This document shows, one piece after another, positions 6,721-32,225 of a stretch of DNA of 32,225 bases. Both the position numbers and the translations under genes were made by a program. Position 1 is the first letter of the stretch; each line of letters begins with the position of its first letter. The notes below the pieces were generated by a model that made no database searches, was not told the origin of the DNA, and worked only from the letters and a program-made list of their open reading frames with translations. Source of the DNA: Opitutales bacterium (lineage in GTDB: Bacteria > Verrucomicrobiota > Verrucomicrobiia > Opitutales > UBA953); the NCBI GenBank assembly GCA_017546455.1, contig JAFYWY010000053.1, forward strand, positions 1 through 32,225, read 5' to 3'.

Positions 6721-7647
6721 ATGAAATGCGCTCGCTTGCTACTCTCTTTGAATCTCGCTTTGTCTTGTGCCGCAGGAGCGATTCCCGCCTTTGCGGATAT
6801 TGTTTTGGACGGTCGTTACGTACGGACGACGGACACGACTTTCGGCGGGGATGTTTTGAAAATCGGCTACGGCGGCCCCTGCATGGCAACGGTTGCGGCG
6901 GGTACGACGTGGACCGAAGCCTCCAACGTGCTCATCGGCTGTTGTCCGGACGACACGGTGCATGCAGTCATGAATGTTTACGGAACAGCGAATACTGAGA
7001 AAAATGTTTATGTTTCCGGAAAAATCCGCACGGGCGATTGCCACGTGGACGGCGGAACTTGGAATTGTGCCGGATTGTTTTACCTCGGCGTCGCTTCCAT
7101 GGGGACGCTCAGCATCAAAAACGGCGGAAGTCTCGTCGTCGGCGATACCTTTAATATCAATTGGGGATCGACGATCACGATTGAGGGTGATTCGAATTTG
7201 ACCCTGACTCTCAATTCTGCCGGGAGCTTCGGCCAAAACGGCGGCATTTATGTCTTCAATAATGTCGCGGACTCCGTGACGCTCGAGAAGGCCTCCAATC
7301 TCGTTATCGATGCTTCGGCTTATACGTCGTCGGCGGATAAGATTGTCTTCGAACGTTTCTTTTCGGCGAACACGCAGCATTCCGTTTTGTCGAATTTGAA
7401 GTTCTCGGTCGGCGGGGAAAGTTTCACGGCGGCGGATCAGGACAAGCTGAATCGTTACCTCAGCGGAATTCGTATCGACGGTTTTGAGGGATACGCGAAA
7501 AGCTTTGTCGTCGATGCCACGACCCAAAGCGTCGCGCTGCACCTGTCCAAAATCCCGGAGCCTTCGGCCTTTGCGCTCATGAGCGGCTTGGCGGGATTGG
7601 CTTTGTTGGCGGGCCGGCGGAGGAAGTGTCGGTTGATCAAAGCTTAA
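6721..7647 (+). CDS. PEP-CTERM sorting domain protein 2
   Basis: A 308-residue secreted protein. Residues 1-25 are a signal peptide ending AIPAFA. Residues ~95-200 are a run of short beta strands with Gly/Asn turns (MGTLSIKNGGSLVVGDTF, STITIEGDSNLTLTL). This resembles the beta-helix passenger of autotransporter-like or PEP-CTERM surface proteins. The C-terminus is a PEP-CTERM tail (IPEPSAFALMSGLAGLALLAG, then RRRKCR) followed by a slightly longer end (LIKA) than in the other three. Function is unknown. A copy of the interspersed repeat begins 3 bp after the stop codon. It is divergent from recQ with 133 bp between the starts. Confidence 0.87.
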   Translation: MKCARLLLSLNLALSCAAGAIPAFADIVLDGRYVRTTDTTFGGDVLKIGYGGPCMATVAAGTTWTEASNVLIGCCPDDTVHAVMNVYGTANTEKNVYVSGKIRTGDCHVDGGTWNCAGLFYLGVASMGTLSIKNGGSLVVGDTFNINWGSTITIEGDSNLTLTLNSAGSFGQNGGIYVFNNVADSVTLEKASNLVIDASAYTSSADKIVFERFFSANTQHSVLSNLKFSVGGESFTAADQDKLNRYLSGIRIDGFEGYAKSFVVDATTQSVALHLSKIPEPSAFALMSGLAGLALLAGRRRKCRLIKA

Positions 7648-7649
7648 GG

Positions 7650-7785
7650 AAACCTCTAGAAATTCCTTTTTTAGATTTGGTTTCAAGCTTTCTTCCATTC
7701 TGTTCGTCAGAATGTGTGCGTCGGAGGTGCACATGCCTAATCTTGAGACAGCTTTTAAAAAGCGAATTTCTGGGGGGATTCTTAA
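7650..7785. repeat. MITE-like structured repeat, copy 3 (two left ends joined)
   Basis: It starts with the family's left end (ACCTCTAGAAATTCC, near 7652). Hairpin 1 is CATTCTG-ttcgt-CAGAATG (7696-7714) and hairpin 2 is GTGC...GCAC (7716-7732). Instead of hairpin 3 and the right end, it continues directly into an inverted left end of the copy-2 type (CATGCCTAATCTTGAGACAGC) and finishes with GCGAATTTCTGG. It is therefore a head-to-head joint of two left ends at the palindromic hairpin 2, about 136 bp long. Confidence 0.72.
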
Positions 7786-7802
7786 AGAGTAAGGGTTGAA
7801 TA

Positions 7803-7838
7803 AGTGTTTCCGGTGATTGTCGGAACACTCGGATTTTT
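7803..7838 (+). terminator. Probable intrinsic terminator after PEP-CTERM gene 2
   Basis: AGTGTTtCCG (7803-7812) pairs with CGGAACACT (7821-7829) with one bulged base, followed by cggaTTTTT. It lies beyond repeat copy 3 and 74 bp before nadB. Confidence 0.5.
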
Positions 7839-7911
7839 ATTCCTGCAGGATCGTGTTTTTTGCGTTCCCGCGCTTGCAATTCGATGTGAAAAGTTTTGAA
7901 ATTCGTGTTCA

Positions 7912-14985: not shown

Positions 14986-14990
14986 TCAGA

Positions 14991-15025
14991 GAGCTTAAAG
15001 ATTAGGGCTTAATGCTTAGAGAGGC
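14991..15025 (+). repeat. Heptamer tandem array A1 (AAGNTTA-like)
   Basis: Five consecutive 7-nt units: GAGCTTA, AAGATTA, GGGCTTA, ATGCTTA, GAGAGGC. The same unit order recurs at 16102 and 31894, and inverted at 16575. It lies directly after the beta-galactosidase stop codon. Confidence 0.7.
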
Positions 15026-15081
15026 GTTCCTGCGAATCCGCGGGAACGCTTTTTTGTGGTTTGTTCCATTGCGCCGCAGGC
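14992..15081 (+). repeat. Left copy of ~90-bp direct repeat flanking PEP-CTERM gene 3
   Basis: It comprises heptamer array, terminator hairpin, and the TTCCATTGCGCCGCAGGC block. It is nearly identical to 16103-16194: the first 27 bases, a 36-base terminator section and the last 20 bases all match, with small differences between. The copies lie one on each side of a single PEP-CTERM gene. Confidence 0.85.
15024..15055 (+). terminator. Intrinsic terminator after the beta-galactosidase gene
   Basis: GCGTTCCTGCG (15024-15034), loop AATC, CGCGGGAACGC (15039-15049), then six Ts: an 11-bp stem with one T-G pair. Confidence 0.9.
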
Positions 15082-15228
15082 GGAATAAGCGCCAAGCATC
15101 AAGCATCGAGCATCAAGCGAAAACCCGAATGGGACTTCGTTCCACCCGCAGATGGGCGGTCTCTCGCCCTCATGTGCCGCTCGGCAATAGACTTGTCTGA
15201 CGTGCCTGCGGCACCATGGAACGCGGAT
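15063..15228. repeat. MITE-like repeat fragments, copy 4 (composite)
   Basis: An inverted right-end block (TTCCATTGCGCCGCAGGC, 15064-15081) is followed, after a heptamer array, by right-hand family sequence in the direct orientation. That part has an ACCCGCAGATGGGCGG segment like the end of hairpin 3 and a GACGTGCCTGCGGCACCATGG block (15199-15219). It is decayed and lacks hairpins 1 and 2. The rest of the 347-bp gap between the beta-galactosidase and PEP-CTERM gene 3 holds the terminator, heptamers, a hairpin and a promoter, with no gene. Confidence 0.6.
15094..15118 (+). repeat. Heptamer tandem array A2 (AAGCATC)
   Basis: AAGCATC, AAGCATC, GAGCATC, AAGC: 3.5 copies of a 7-nt unit lying between the two fragments of repeat copy 4. 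Confidence 0.8.
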
Positions 15229-15332: not shown

Positions 15333-16097
15333 ATGAAAAAATATATCGCACTCGCCGCGCTCCTCGCCGCAGGAAGCGCTTTCGCAAATGCCGCTATTAC
15401 GGATGGACTCCAGTGGGCGGAATCCTTTGGTGATGGCTACAGTCAGGAAGCCACGTTCTCTCTCAATAACGCGTTCCATGTTGAGGATGGCGTCGGTGTC
15501 GCCGGAGGTAGCTACACGGATTCTCGCATCTGGACGACGAATACTGACAGTAAATTCTCTAATGCGTTTACGTTCAGCTTTAAATTGGTTGACCTCGATG
15601 CGGCTGCTTGGACCGATGCCCTTGCGTTGTACACAAATGGTACTACTTACGGTACAGACAATTCTATCCAGCTACAGATGGATAACAGCGGAAACCTTAT
15701 GGTTTACACGGATAAGTTTACTGGATCGAATGTCGCCGGTGATGCTTCTAACTTTTCCTTGGGTAAGCTTAGCGCTGTAGAGGGTAAAACTATTACTCTT
15801 GTTTTTAGTGGAACTACGCTTACTGGCTATCTTGATGGTGTTGCTATTGATGACACGGTAGAATTTACGTATGCCGAAGGGGTTTCTCCGAGCACAGCGC
15901 TCACGGGATTTCAGTTCGGTGCAGCTTTCGGCAATCAGCGTGTGTCAAATAGTGTGACCGTCGATAATATTGCCGTTTGGAATCGTGCGTTGAGTGAAAA
16001 GGAAGTCGCTTCTCTCATCCCCGAACCGTCCACGTTTGGTCTTCTCGCGGGCTTGGGTGCTTTGGCGCTCGTCGGCACGCGCCGTCGCCGCAAGTAA
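15333..16097 (+). CDS. PEP-CTERM protein 3 with LamG/concanavalin-like domain
   Basis: A 254-residue secreted protein. The signal peptide (MKKYIALAALLAAGSAFANA) and tail (IPEPSTFGLLAGLGALALVG then TRRRRK) are near-copies of those in the protein at 412-1164, at the DNA level too. The middle (~25-225) looks like a LamG/concanavalin A-like fold: ITLVFSGTTLTGYLDGV, then DNIAVWNRALSEKEVASL, which is the typical closing strand and helix. Such domains often bind carbohydrate, but no specific ligand is evident. The middle uses more A/T-ending codons than the glycosidase genes. The gene is bracketed by ~90-bp direct repeats. No Shine-Dalgarno is evident before the ATG. Confidence 0.9.
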   Translation: MKKYIALAALLAAGSAFANAAITDGLQWAESFGDGYSQEATFSLNNAFHVEDGVGVAGGSYTDSRIWTTNTDSKFSNAFTFSFKLVDLDAAAWTDALALYTNGTTYGTDNSIQLQMDNSGNLMVYTDKFTGSNVAGDASNFSLGKLSAVEGKTITLVFSGTTLTGYLDGVAIDDTVEFTYAEGVSPSTALTGFQFGAAFGNQRVSNSVTVDNIAVWNRALSEKEVASLIPEPSTFGLLAGLGALALVGTRRRRK

Positions 16098-16101
16098 GCG
16101 A

Positions 16102-16136
16102 AAGCTTAAAGATTAGGGCTTAATGCTTAAAGAAGA
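16102..16136 (+). repeat. Heptamer tandem array A3
   Basis: AAGCTTA, AAGATTA, GGGCTTA, ATGCTTA, AAGAAGA. It has the same unit order as 14991-15025 and lies 5 bp after the stop codon of PEP-CTERM gene 3. Confidence 0.7.
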
Positions 16137-16194
16137 GCGTTCCTGCGAATCCGCGGGAACGCTTTTTTGTGGCCTGTTCCATTGCGCCGCAGGC
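16103..16194 (+). repeat. Right copy of ~90-bp direct repeat flanking PEP-CTERM gene 3
   Basis: Near-identical to 14992-15081, including the heptamer array, the full terminator and the TTCCATTGCGCCGCAGGC block. The distance between the starts of the two copies is 1111 bp. Confidence 0.85.
16137..16168 (+). terminator. Intrinsic terminator after PEP-CTERM gene 3
   Basis: The same 11-bp stem and AATC loop as at 15024-15055 (GCGTTCCTGCG / CGCGGGAACGC), followed by six Ts. Confidence 0.9.
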
Positions 16195-16322
16195 ACGTCG
16201 AGGACGAATCGAGGTCGTTTCGCGGCGCTGATTGTGGCAGGGCGGGTCCGCGGGTTTCGGCAGAGCCTACACCCACGGTTATCCCATGTAGTGCACCTCC
16301 GGCGCACATGCTTCGAAGAGGC
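16174..16322 (-). repeat. MITE-like structured repeat, copy 5 (inverted)
   Basis: On the + strand: the TTCCATTGCGCCGCAGG block, then hairpin 3 with outer arms CCGCGGGT (16248-16255) and ACCCACGG (16271-16278, one mismatch) around inner stem GGC-aga-GCC (16259-16267). Hairpin 2 is GTGC...GCAC (16291-16306). The outer end is GCTTCGAAGAGGC (16310-16322), shared with copy 7 rather than with copies 2 and 3. Confidence 0.8.
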
Positions 16323-16528: not shown

Positions 16529-16574
16529 TTTTGTCGGTGCAGGGAGTTTATTTTCCTCCATGAATCACCTTCTT

Positions 16575-16602
16575 TAAGCATTAAGCTCTAATCTTTAATC
16601 TT
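16575..16602 (-). repeat. Heptamer tandem array A4 (inverted)
   Basis: On the + strand TAAGCAT, TAAGCTC, TAATCTT, TAATCTT: four units, the reverse complement of the AAGNTTA-like units found elsewhere. Confidence 0.7.
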
Positions 16603-16603
16603 T

Positions 16604-16623
16604 CCTTTCCCTCCCGGGAAAGG
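16604..16623 (+). other. Small perfect hairpin upstream of the sulfatase gene
   Basis: CCTTTCCC, loop TCCC, GGGAAAGG: an 8-bp stem about 50 bp before the sulfatase ATG. Only a weak T run follows, so it is more likely in the 5' leader than a terminator. Function unknown. Confidence 0.35.
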
Positions 16624-24651: not shown

Positions 24652-24684
24652 TATAGGCGGCTTTAGCAGAATCATCCTTTGAGC

Positions 24685-24924
24685 GCTACCTATAGAAATT
24701 CGTTTTATCAAAAGCAGTTCACAAGCGTTCTTTCGTTCTGTTCGTCAGAACATGTGCTCCGGAGGTGCACTACATGGGATAACCGCGGGCGCAGGTGAAA
24801 CCGAAACCCGCGGATAGGCGGCCTTGCCACCATGCGCCGATTGAGGACACGCTTACATCCCTGACGTGCCTGCGGCGCAATGGACCGAGTTGCGTGCTTT
24901 CGCAAACGAATTTTTAGAGGTAGC
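24685..24924 (+). repeat. MITE-like structured repeat, full copy (copy 6)
   Basis: A 240-bp element with 21-bp terminal inverted repeats matching at 19 positions (left GCTACCTATAGAAATTCG at 24685-24702; right end AAACGAATTTTTAGAGGTAGC's arm, 24904-24924). Inside, in order: hairpin 1 GTTCTG-ttcgt-CAGAAC (24735-24751); hairpin 2 GTGC-tCCggaGGt-GCAC (24754-24770); hairpin 3 with outer arms CCGCGGG (24783-24789) and CCCGCGG (24807-24813) around inner stem GGT-gaa-ACC (24794-24802); and the CCTGCGGCGCAATGGA block (24864-24879). It encodes no protein. No clear target-site duplication is seen. Confidence 0.85.
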
Positions 24925-24957
24925 CCTAAGATGCGCCGGGAAAGCCGTTTCGGCGGA

Positions 24958-25149: not shown

Positions 25150-25318
25150 TTTTTAGAAAAGAGCGTAAAGTTCGTTCCATTGCGCCGCTGGAAGCTCGGG
25201 GATATATCAGCGTCGCTTAGCGGCGCATAAGGCCGGAGGCCTGTCCGTGGGTTTCGGATCTGCCTACACCCGCGGTTATCCCATGTAGTGCCCCTCCGGA
25301 GCACAGCCTCGAAGAGGC
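25150..25318 (-). repeat. MITE-like structured repeat, copy 7 (inverted)
   Basis: On the + strand: TTCCATTGCGCCGCTGG (25175-25191); hairpin GTCGC-tta-GCGGC; hairpin 3 with arms CCGTGGGT and ACCCGCGG (a T-G pair) and a partly mispaired inner stem (GGA/GCC); hairpin 2 GTGCcCC-tcc-GGaGCAC (25288-25304); outer end GCCTCGAAGAGGC (25306-25318). A stray terminal-repeat-like motif (TTCCGGAAATTCGTTTT) follows at 25395-25411, just before the PEP-CTERM gene's stop codon. Confidence 0.78.
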
Positions 25319-25422: not shown

Positions 25423-26268
25423 TTAGGCGCGCTTTCGGCGGCGGCTTCCCGCCAGACACAGAGCCCCGAGGCCCGCCAAGCAGGAAAATGCCGAAGGCTC
25501 GGGAATGGCGGAGATGGCAATCATGCCGATTGCGGATTCGGGAACTCCAGTCGTTTGACTTGCGTCTACATTGTCAAAATACAATACCAAAGCATTGCTT
25601 GCATTTGTCGGGGTAATATCGAAGCTGACCAAGATTTGGCGATTTGCGGAAAGCGCTACACCGTCCCAAGAAGCCCCACTCGGCGTTCTCCAATCCTGGA
25701 TGCCCATATCGCCGTATTGGCAGGCGATGTCTAAACCGTGGCTGCCGTTGGTTGAGTCATCGTCTGCTCCGCCGTGTGCTCCTCTAGTGCGGATATTGAG
25801 TGTGTCGCCTCTCGATTTGACTAAAAGTACAACTTTGTAGTTTTTCCCGATTTCGAATCCACCGAATTCTATTTTGATGCCGTTTGCAGCTTGTCCGTTT
25901 TTCCCGCCGACAAAAAGTCCTGTTTTCAGTCCATTGAAATCGTCGGAAGAACTCTTTCCGCTCGCAGAGTAAAGCGCTTCCAATGCGGCGTTATTACTCC
26001 AATCTGCATTTGAGAAGCTATTGACAGTGAGTGGAAGTGTGTTGATTCCCGTGACACCGTTTATTGAAAGCTGGATATTTAGTCCTGTTTTGTTGGTTTT
26101 CCAAAACTGGTCAGAGGTGAAGCCCGAAATTTCTAATTTTTGCGCTCCTGAGACGTTCCCGTCTCCCCAAGTGAGAATGTCGTGTACCTCGGCGTAGGCA
26201 GTGTTGGCCGCGATTAGGAGGCCGAGGCCTGTTAATAATATTGTTTTCTGGGTTATGGATTTAGTCAT
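25423..26268 (-). CDS. PEP-CTERM sorting domain protein 4
   Basis: A 281-residue secreted protein. The signal peptide is ~1-26 (TILLTGLGLLIAANTAYA). The tail is IPEPSAFSCLAGLGALCLAG then SRRRKRA. The middle is rich in Gly, Asn, Ser and Asp, probably a beta-sandwich; the strand GKNYKVVLLVKSRGDTLNIR and the late FDITPTNASNALVLYFDNVD resemble the C-terminal part of carbohydrate-binding-like domains of other PEP-CTERM proteins, but I cannot assign a family. Its middle DNA is richer in A/T than neighbouring housekeeping genes. Repeat copy 7 and heptamer array B2 lie directly 3' of it. No Shine-Dalgarno is seen. Confidence 0.87.
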   Translation of the reverse strand: MTKSITQKTILLTGLGLLIAANTAYAEVHDILTWGDGNVSGAQKLEISGFTSDQFWKTNKTGLNIQLSINGVTGINTLPLTVNSFSNADWSNNAALEALYSASGKSSSDDFNGLKTGLFVGGKNGQAANGIKIEFGGFEIGKNYKVVLLVKSRGDTLNIRTRGAHGGADDDSTNGSHGLDIACQYGDMGIQDWRTPSGASWDGVALSANRQILVSFDITPTNASNALVLYFDNVDASQTTGVPESAIGMIAISAIPEPSAFSCLAGLGALCLAGSRRRKRA

Positions 26269-31881: not shown

Positions 31882-31893
31882 CGTGCCGTAGGA

Positions 31894-31928
31894 GAGATTA
31901 AAGATTAGGGCTTAAAGCTTAAAGAGGC
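31894..31928 (+). repeat. Heptamer tandem array A5
   Basis: GAGATTA, AAGATTA, GGGCTTA, AAGCTTA, AAGAGGC: five 7-nt units in the same order as at 14991 and 16102. It lies 12 bp after the rimO stop codon. Confidence 0.72.
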
Positions 31929-32088: not shown

Positions 32089-32225
32089 GCTACCTCTAGA
32101 AATTCCTTTTTTAGATTTGGGTTCAAGCTTTCTTCCATTCTGCTCGCCAGAATGTGTGCGCCGGAGGTGCACCACATTGGATAACCGCGGGTGTAGACGT
32201 AAGTCGGAACCCGCGGATAGGCGGC
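32089..32225 (+). repeat. MITE-like structured repeat, copy 8 (cut by window end)
   Basis: The left end GCTACCTCTAGAAATTCC (32089-32106) matches the terminal repeat of copy 6. Hairpin 1 is CATTCTG-ctcgc-CAGAATG (32136-32154). Hairpin 2 is GTGC...GCAC (32156-32172). Hairpin 3 has outer arms CCGCGGGT (32185-32192) and ACCCGCGG around inner stem GAC-gtaa-GTC (32196-32205). The right end lies beyond the window. Confidence 0.82.

Follow-up and report, generated by a model that had tools for sequence, protein, structure and literature searches.

Bacterial type II MITEs resemble IS elements in their terminal inverted repeats (TIRs) only (PMC10969869). Families such as RUP, Nezha and Chunjie are short, non-coding, base-paired, intergenic and TIR-bounded, with short target duplications and many copies. 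Other intergenic repeats are composites. BOX of pneumococcus is a structured repeat of interchangeable modules with many copies of varied lengths (PMC3049150), Correia elements have inverted ends of ~26 bp and an internal sequence of varied length (PMC3049150), and BIMEs, REP (GTAG) and Correia repeats are mosaics of palindromic units in inverted pairs between genes. In Verrucomicrobia, the only comparable repeats that we found described were GTAG REPs.

The repeat described here shares the listed features of type II MITEs; however, no partner IS was found, its TIRs surround unrelated interiors in sister species, and its core also occurs without them. It resembles BOX in being a composite of modules, but, compared by architecture, it consists of a core with alternative flanks, often in tail-to-tail inverted pairs, whereas BOX has a tandem boxB array. 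It is also a mosaic like the BIMEs, but its core spans ~137 nt with three distinct hairpins, whereas REPs span 20-40 bp, and the Y1 transposase resident in the genome has a different flanking hairpin. No sequence scored above the gathering threshold in Rfam 15 (weak microRNA matches far below it were taken as chance), and no earlier description of the TIR string or of Verrucomicrobia MITEs was found in the literature searched. As far as these searches go, the family is new, as an earlier note on this DNA had supposed, though its kind is known from other bacteria.

The window, i.e., the whole stretch of 32,225 nucleotides that was analysed, is the entire contig C42 of an Opitutales bacterium draft genome (2.15 Mb, 98% complete, 105 contigs; G000, with its congeners labelled G001-G007). 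The earlier note had proposed one MITE-like family of about 240 bp with at least eight full or partial copies in the window, and its main example was the copy at 24685-24924 (Table 1). The 21-bp inverted ends of this copy, with 19 matches, were confirmed, and ~0.003 such pairs are expected by chance in 32 kb. Its several internal hairpins were also confirmed, the copy folding better than its own shuffles (z about -4.3; -4.2 as DNA and -4.4 as RNA). Its flanks, TTTGAG and CCTAAG, make a poor target duplication.

Repetition was found at all places that had been named, but they do not hold eight copies of one 240-bp element. The supposed copies at 1-128 and 131-331 are halves of one ~430-bp tail-to-tail composite cut by the contig end, and that at 15063-15228 is a remnant keeping only part of the third hairpin. 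At 16174-16322 and 25150-25318 the core is present but TIRs are lacking, at 7650-7785 both ends are present but the core is not, and the element at 32089-32225 keeps its left end and is cut by the other contig end.

Table 1 Features of the repeat in the window
Feature	Positions	Strand	Remarks
TIR-bounded element: A-type left end, core, B-type right end	24684-24925	+	ends GCTACC.../...GGTAGC, 19/21 inverted
Left terminal inverted repeat, GCTACCTATAGAAATTCGTTT	24685-24705	+	
Right terminal inverted repeat, GCTACCTCTAAAAATTCGTTT on the - strand	24904-24924	-	
Hairpin H0 of A-type flank, GTTCTGTTCGTCAGAAC	24735-24751	+	
Core hairpin H1, GTGCTCCGGAGGTGCAC	24754-24770	+	covaries across species
Core hairpin H2, CCGCGGG...CCCGCGG with inner GGT/ACC stem	24783-24813	+	
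Core hairpin H3, GCGCCG...CGGCGC, then AATGGA(A/C)C	24834-24878	+	3' arm sequence conserved across congeners
One composite, left end lost at contig end	1-334	.	two cores, + (1-126) and - (125-288), about a common centre; C-type TIR end at about 310-334
Composite with internal deletion: one H1-like hairpin between an A-type and a C-type end; no core	7646-7790	+	
Remnant: TTCCATTGCGCCGCAGG arms of H3 enclosing unrelated sequence	15067-15225	+	covariance model 33 bits
Core copy without recognised TIRs	16173-16309	-	
Core copy, D-type flank ATTCGAATTCG..GCCTCTTCGAGGC, no recognised TIR	25171-25306	-	
A-type end, H1 and H2, cut by contig end	32088-32225	+	

The window also contains a second short repeat, GAGAGCTTAAAGATTAGGGCTTAATGCTTAAAGAGGC, after gene ends (14989-15025, 16100-16136, 31892-31928 and 16571-16606), which at two of these places is followed by a terminator-like hairpin (GCGTTCCTGCG..CGCGGGAACGC and a T run). 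In addition, four proteins with a C-terminal PEP-sorting-like tail (e.g., IPEPSAFGLLAGLGAIALVGTRRRRK) are encoded in this 32-kb contig, at 412-1164, 6721-7647, 15333-16097 and 25423-26268.

The repeat is real and far commoner than the earlier note had it. A covariance model built on the 137-nt core found 118 matches in the 2.15-Mb genome (cut-off E ≤ 0.01), the best reaching E = 3e-43, and a blastn search of the genome gave 60 matches. Pairwise comparison of 85 cores showed a median identity of 74%, and 21 pairs reached at least 95%, which indicates that old and recent copies stand side by side. Copies occur in both orientations and only between genes, as the earlier note had stated; in 295 kb of the genome annotated with a crude gene caller, none of 105 overlapped a called gene. 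No coding capacity was found beyond that of shuffled sequences, the longest open reading frame of each of the 18 TIR-bounded elements lying within the 95th percentile of shuffles, in agreement with the same note.

The core begins with H1 (GTGCGCCGGAGGTGCAC) and a linker ending in GGATAA, continues with H2 (CCGCGGG..CCCGCGG, enclosing a small stem), a linker that varies, and H3 (GCGCCG..CGGCGC), and closes with AATGGAAC. Left flanks of several kinds join this same core. Among 90 near-full copies, 18 have an A-type flank (TIR, GGTTTCAAGCTTTCTTCC and hairpin H0), 17 a C-type flank (TIR and CTGTCTCAAGATTA), 35 a D-type flank (ATTCGAATTCG..GCCTCTTCGAGGC, no clear TIR) and 18 other flanks, while two are cut by a contig end. 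Thus 35 of the 90 carry an A or C left end, and 53 carry neither recognised TIR-type left end. The D-type CTATAGAATTCG is a diverged TIR-like sequence, but its likeness continues further outward and it has no clear duplications, and it was not counted as a TIR.

Neighbouring cores stand in +/- (tail-to-tail) order in 16 of 23 pairs, and in eight of these the cores are 59-63 bp apart; the resulting composites measure ~430-470 bp (e.g., C65:5372-5808 and C67:8309-8777). At the other extreme are elements of 128-133 bp (C39, C76:23826 and C99:16975), with which we grouped window 7646-7790; these look like composites that have lost everything between the two H1 hairpins. TIR-bounded forms span 128 to 469 bp, and the left flanks joined to the same core are of at least three kinds. 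The repeat is a mosaic intergenic repeat in which the hairpin core is conserved and the ends can be exchanged, not one family of 240-bp elements.

The TIR consensus is GNNACCTCTAGAAATTC, and its 20-mer ACCTCTAGAAATTCNTTTTT matched the genome 68 times with at most three mismatches, against one match for a reversed-pattern control. In 25 elements with both ends (18 in this genome and seven in two congeners, two of which, L093 and L099, appear to be one insertion common to G005 and G004), the 6-bp flanks agreed at 94 of 150 positions, compared with 76.6 ± 3.6 after permuting the right flanks (none of 2000 permutations was as high). Windows of 4 and 5 bp in the same register gave z values of 5.1 and 4.6. 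Many offsets and lengths were scanned, and the strongest signals share one register, just outside GNNACC..GGTNNC, where the agreement exceeds the shared consensus. Perfect non-palindromic duplications were CAGAAG (L092), CTTACG (L099), CTAAAG (C79) and CTTAAA (C99:16975); in many single copies, that at 24685-24924 included, the duplication is imperfect. The favoured target is approximately CTTAAG (~6 bp), and because it is palindromic the inverted ends look longer than they are. The short direct repeats next to the TIRs support a transposon-like origin.

The second short repeat of the window, GAGAGCTTAAAGATTAGGGCTTAATGCTTAAAGAGGC, contains a CTTAAAG-like target of these ends. L093 (G005:C29:83000-86000) and L099 (G004:C8:5600-8700) are TIR-bounded elements at what seems to be one and the same site, with another interior and with duplications CTTCCG/CTTACG and CTTACG/CTTACG, respectively, which looks like an old insertion shared by two species.

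The amplification is species-specific. The TIR was present in four of 79 genomes of the family, all of one genus (control, 0), and the elements that it encloses in G005 and G004, of ~150-200 bp, have interiors unrelated to those found here. The further copies that the earlier note had called for were found in the genome itself and, diverged, in three congeners by the core model (G002, 8; G004, 18; G005, 9), while G001, G003, G006 and G007 gave no match to that model. Outside its own genome, the exact core pattern occurred in the GTDB collection in one copy only, in G002, the MAG 'Verrucomicrobia bacterium isolate SIG76'. A genus-wide core model matched 12 times in G010, from another genus of the same family, and once in G198, from another family of the same order. 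In G004, locus L181 (G004:C20:234000-241500) holds six core copies within 5 kb of intergenic-rich sequence, some of them tandem copies separated by a terminator-like hairpin.

Presence and absence differences were seen at the species level. At the rplU locus, the element at C78:1005-1242 lies just upstream of a conserved promoter region that all seven congeners have without the element, a one-sided comparison in that the match does not extend to the left flank. Of the empty sites that the earlier note had hoped for, no clean two-sided case was found, and the genes next to the window's copies are arranged differently in congeners.

TIR scans of the genome itself, the genus, the family and viral contigs revealed no autonomous element bounded by these TIRs, although in a draft genome absence is not proof; the full-length IS that the earlier note had suggested looking for thus did not appear. 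Every TIR match in the genome leads into non-coding element sequence, and the congener matches were read too. The IS4/IS5-type transposase domain PF01609 was absent from eight genomes of the genus, and the viral contigs contained neither TIR nor core. The mobilising enzyme may be lost, divergent at its own ends, or among collapsed contigs.

Taken together, the repeat is probably best explained as a mosaic family of non-coding intergenic repeats, similar to BIMEs, BOX and Correia elements, whose TIR-bounded forms most likely proliferated as non-autonomous DNA transposons. The shared chain of H1, H2 and H3 would have been packaged in many copies between GNNACCTCTAGAAATTC TIRs, and these forms would have inserted with ~6-bp duplications of a CTTAAG-like target. 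A transposase recognising the ends would move them in trans, presumably by a cut-and-paste type of movement, and the hairpins may matter through folding, in single-stranded DNA or in RNA. Since no transposase with these ends was found, mobilisation in trans is something that we infer. Small size without coding capacity, TIRs shared by a subset, target duplications in the 25 elements as a group and presence differences between species all agree with MITEs, while a related autonomous IS with the same ends was not found in the draft genome. The term MITE-like therefore suits the TIR-bounded subset, with its TIR matches, duplications and species-specific burst, but not the 53 near-full copies with neither an A nor a C end; as more than half of the core copies are without these recognised ends, TIR transposition cannot explain all copies.

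Core and ends are separable, since congeners carry the same ends with other interiors and the same three-hairpin core with other flanks. Congener cores lack the TIRs of this genome, and those in G004 and G005 often have a terminator-like GGACAGCCGTCTCGGCTGTCC and T-run on the left. Their sequence is nearly rewritten, and the three-hairpin structure is kept. Among 39 cores from four species, 108 pairing-preserving changes on both sides were counted, compared with 43 ± 6 after shuffling, a test inflated by related sequences, and with at most 37 when the pairing was slid; the slid control and the changes that follow species carry more weight. Such changes affected five of seven pairs in H1 and three of eight in H2, and H1 covaries between species. 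It is conceivable, if rather unlikely, that the core predates the transposon ends and is independent of them, forming a separate unit in which selection maintains the fold of one particular strand, as single-stranded DNA or as RNA. It would then be a structured passenger changing vehicles.

We also consider it unlikely that these are REP/REPIN-like repeats spread as single-stranded hairpin DNA by a Y1 (HUH, RAYT-type) transposase, with TIRs and direct repeats being secondary. GTAG REPs are abundant in Opitutus terrae (PMC3733652). The present genome has a single Y1 transposase (C51:7064-7339), whose best NCBIfam match is the REP-associated tyrosine transposase model, below cut-off. Core copies without TIRs exist, and in many copies H2 resembles a tagged palindrome, GTAG or GCAG followed by a small hairpin, but inside a longer stem. 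However, the hairpin that flanks the Y1 gene is another one, GGGAGAAGCGGTT..AACCGCTTC, and not the three-hairpin repeat; on this ground the resident enzyme was rejected as the mobiliser. The target duplications and long TIRs seen here are unlike Y1 transposition, which is not known to produce target duplications or to require long TIRs. It should be noted that at the Y1 locus (L031 1345-2300, which corresponds to G000:C51 about 6908-7860) the GGGAGAAGCGGTT..AACCGCTTC hairpins also run into the ends of the Y1 reading frame, with MKRLKTASPK at both protein ends.

It is quite improbable that the repeats are host-useful RNA elements, acting in 3' processing, mRNA stability or attenuation, that were kept by selection and duplicated by recombination without transposition. 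Structure kept across species and H1 covariation would agree with such a role, as would the position of the copies, the nearest gene end being a 3' end in 48 of 77 and a 5' end in 29 (p 0.04). However, copies in tandem gene pairs showed no strand preference relative to the genes (15:15), and this split together with the 3' bias fits insertions tolerated away from promoters rather than a strand-bound mRNA element. Departures from pairing were G-U more often than A-C (66 vs 35 using all predicted pairs). This ratio shrank to 50:30 within the three hairpins, was carried by H1 (20 vs 5) with no excess in H2, and was not repeated in congeners (6:10); we therefore do not claim strand-specific folding. 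Furthermore, Rfam gave no match, the core was absent by search from half of the congeners, and TIRs with target duplications would be unexpected of RNA elements. An assembly artefact or chance likeness among GC-rich hairpins, which might be suspected as 22 cores lie within 300 bp of a contig end in the genome part examined and both ends of the window fall within the repeat, is refuted by the genome-wide blastn and covariance-model matches and by copies within long contigs with differing flanks; cores lie at contig ends because a true repeat breaks the assembly, and in practice this repeat breaks metagenome assemblies.

With the transposon reading of the TIR-bounded forms preferred, the findings describe a hairpin-based, mosaic, MITE-like family that has grown to about a hundred copies in a lineage of uncultured Verrucomicrobia. 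Because TIRs and interiors are combined differently in sister species and the hairpins have nevertheless stayed paired, the family offers a natural case for asking whether a transposase or the host uses the fold of the repeat.
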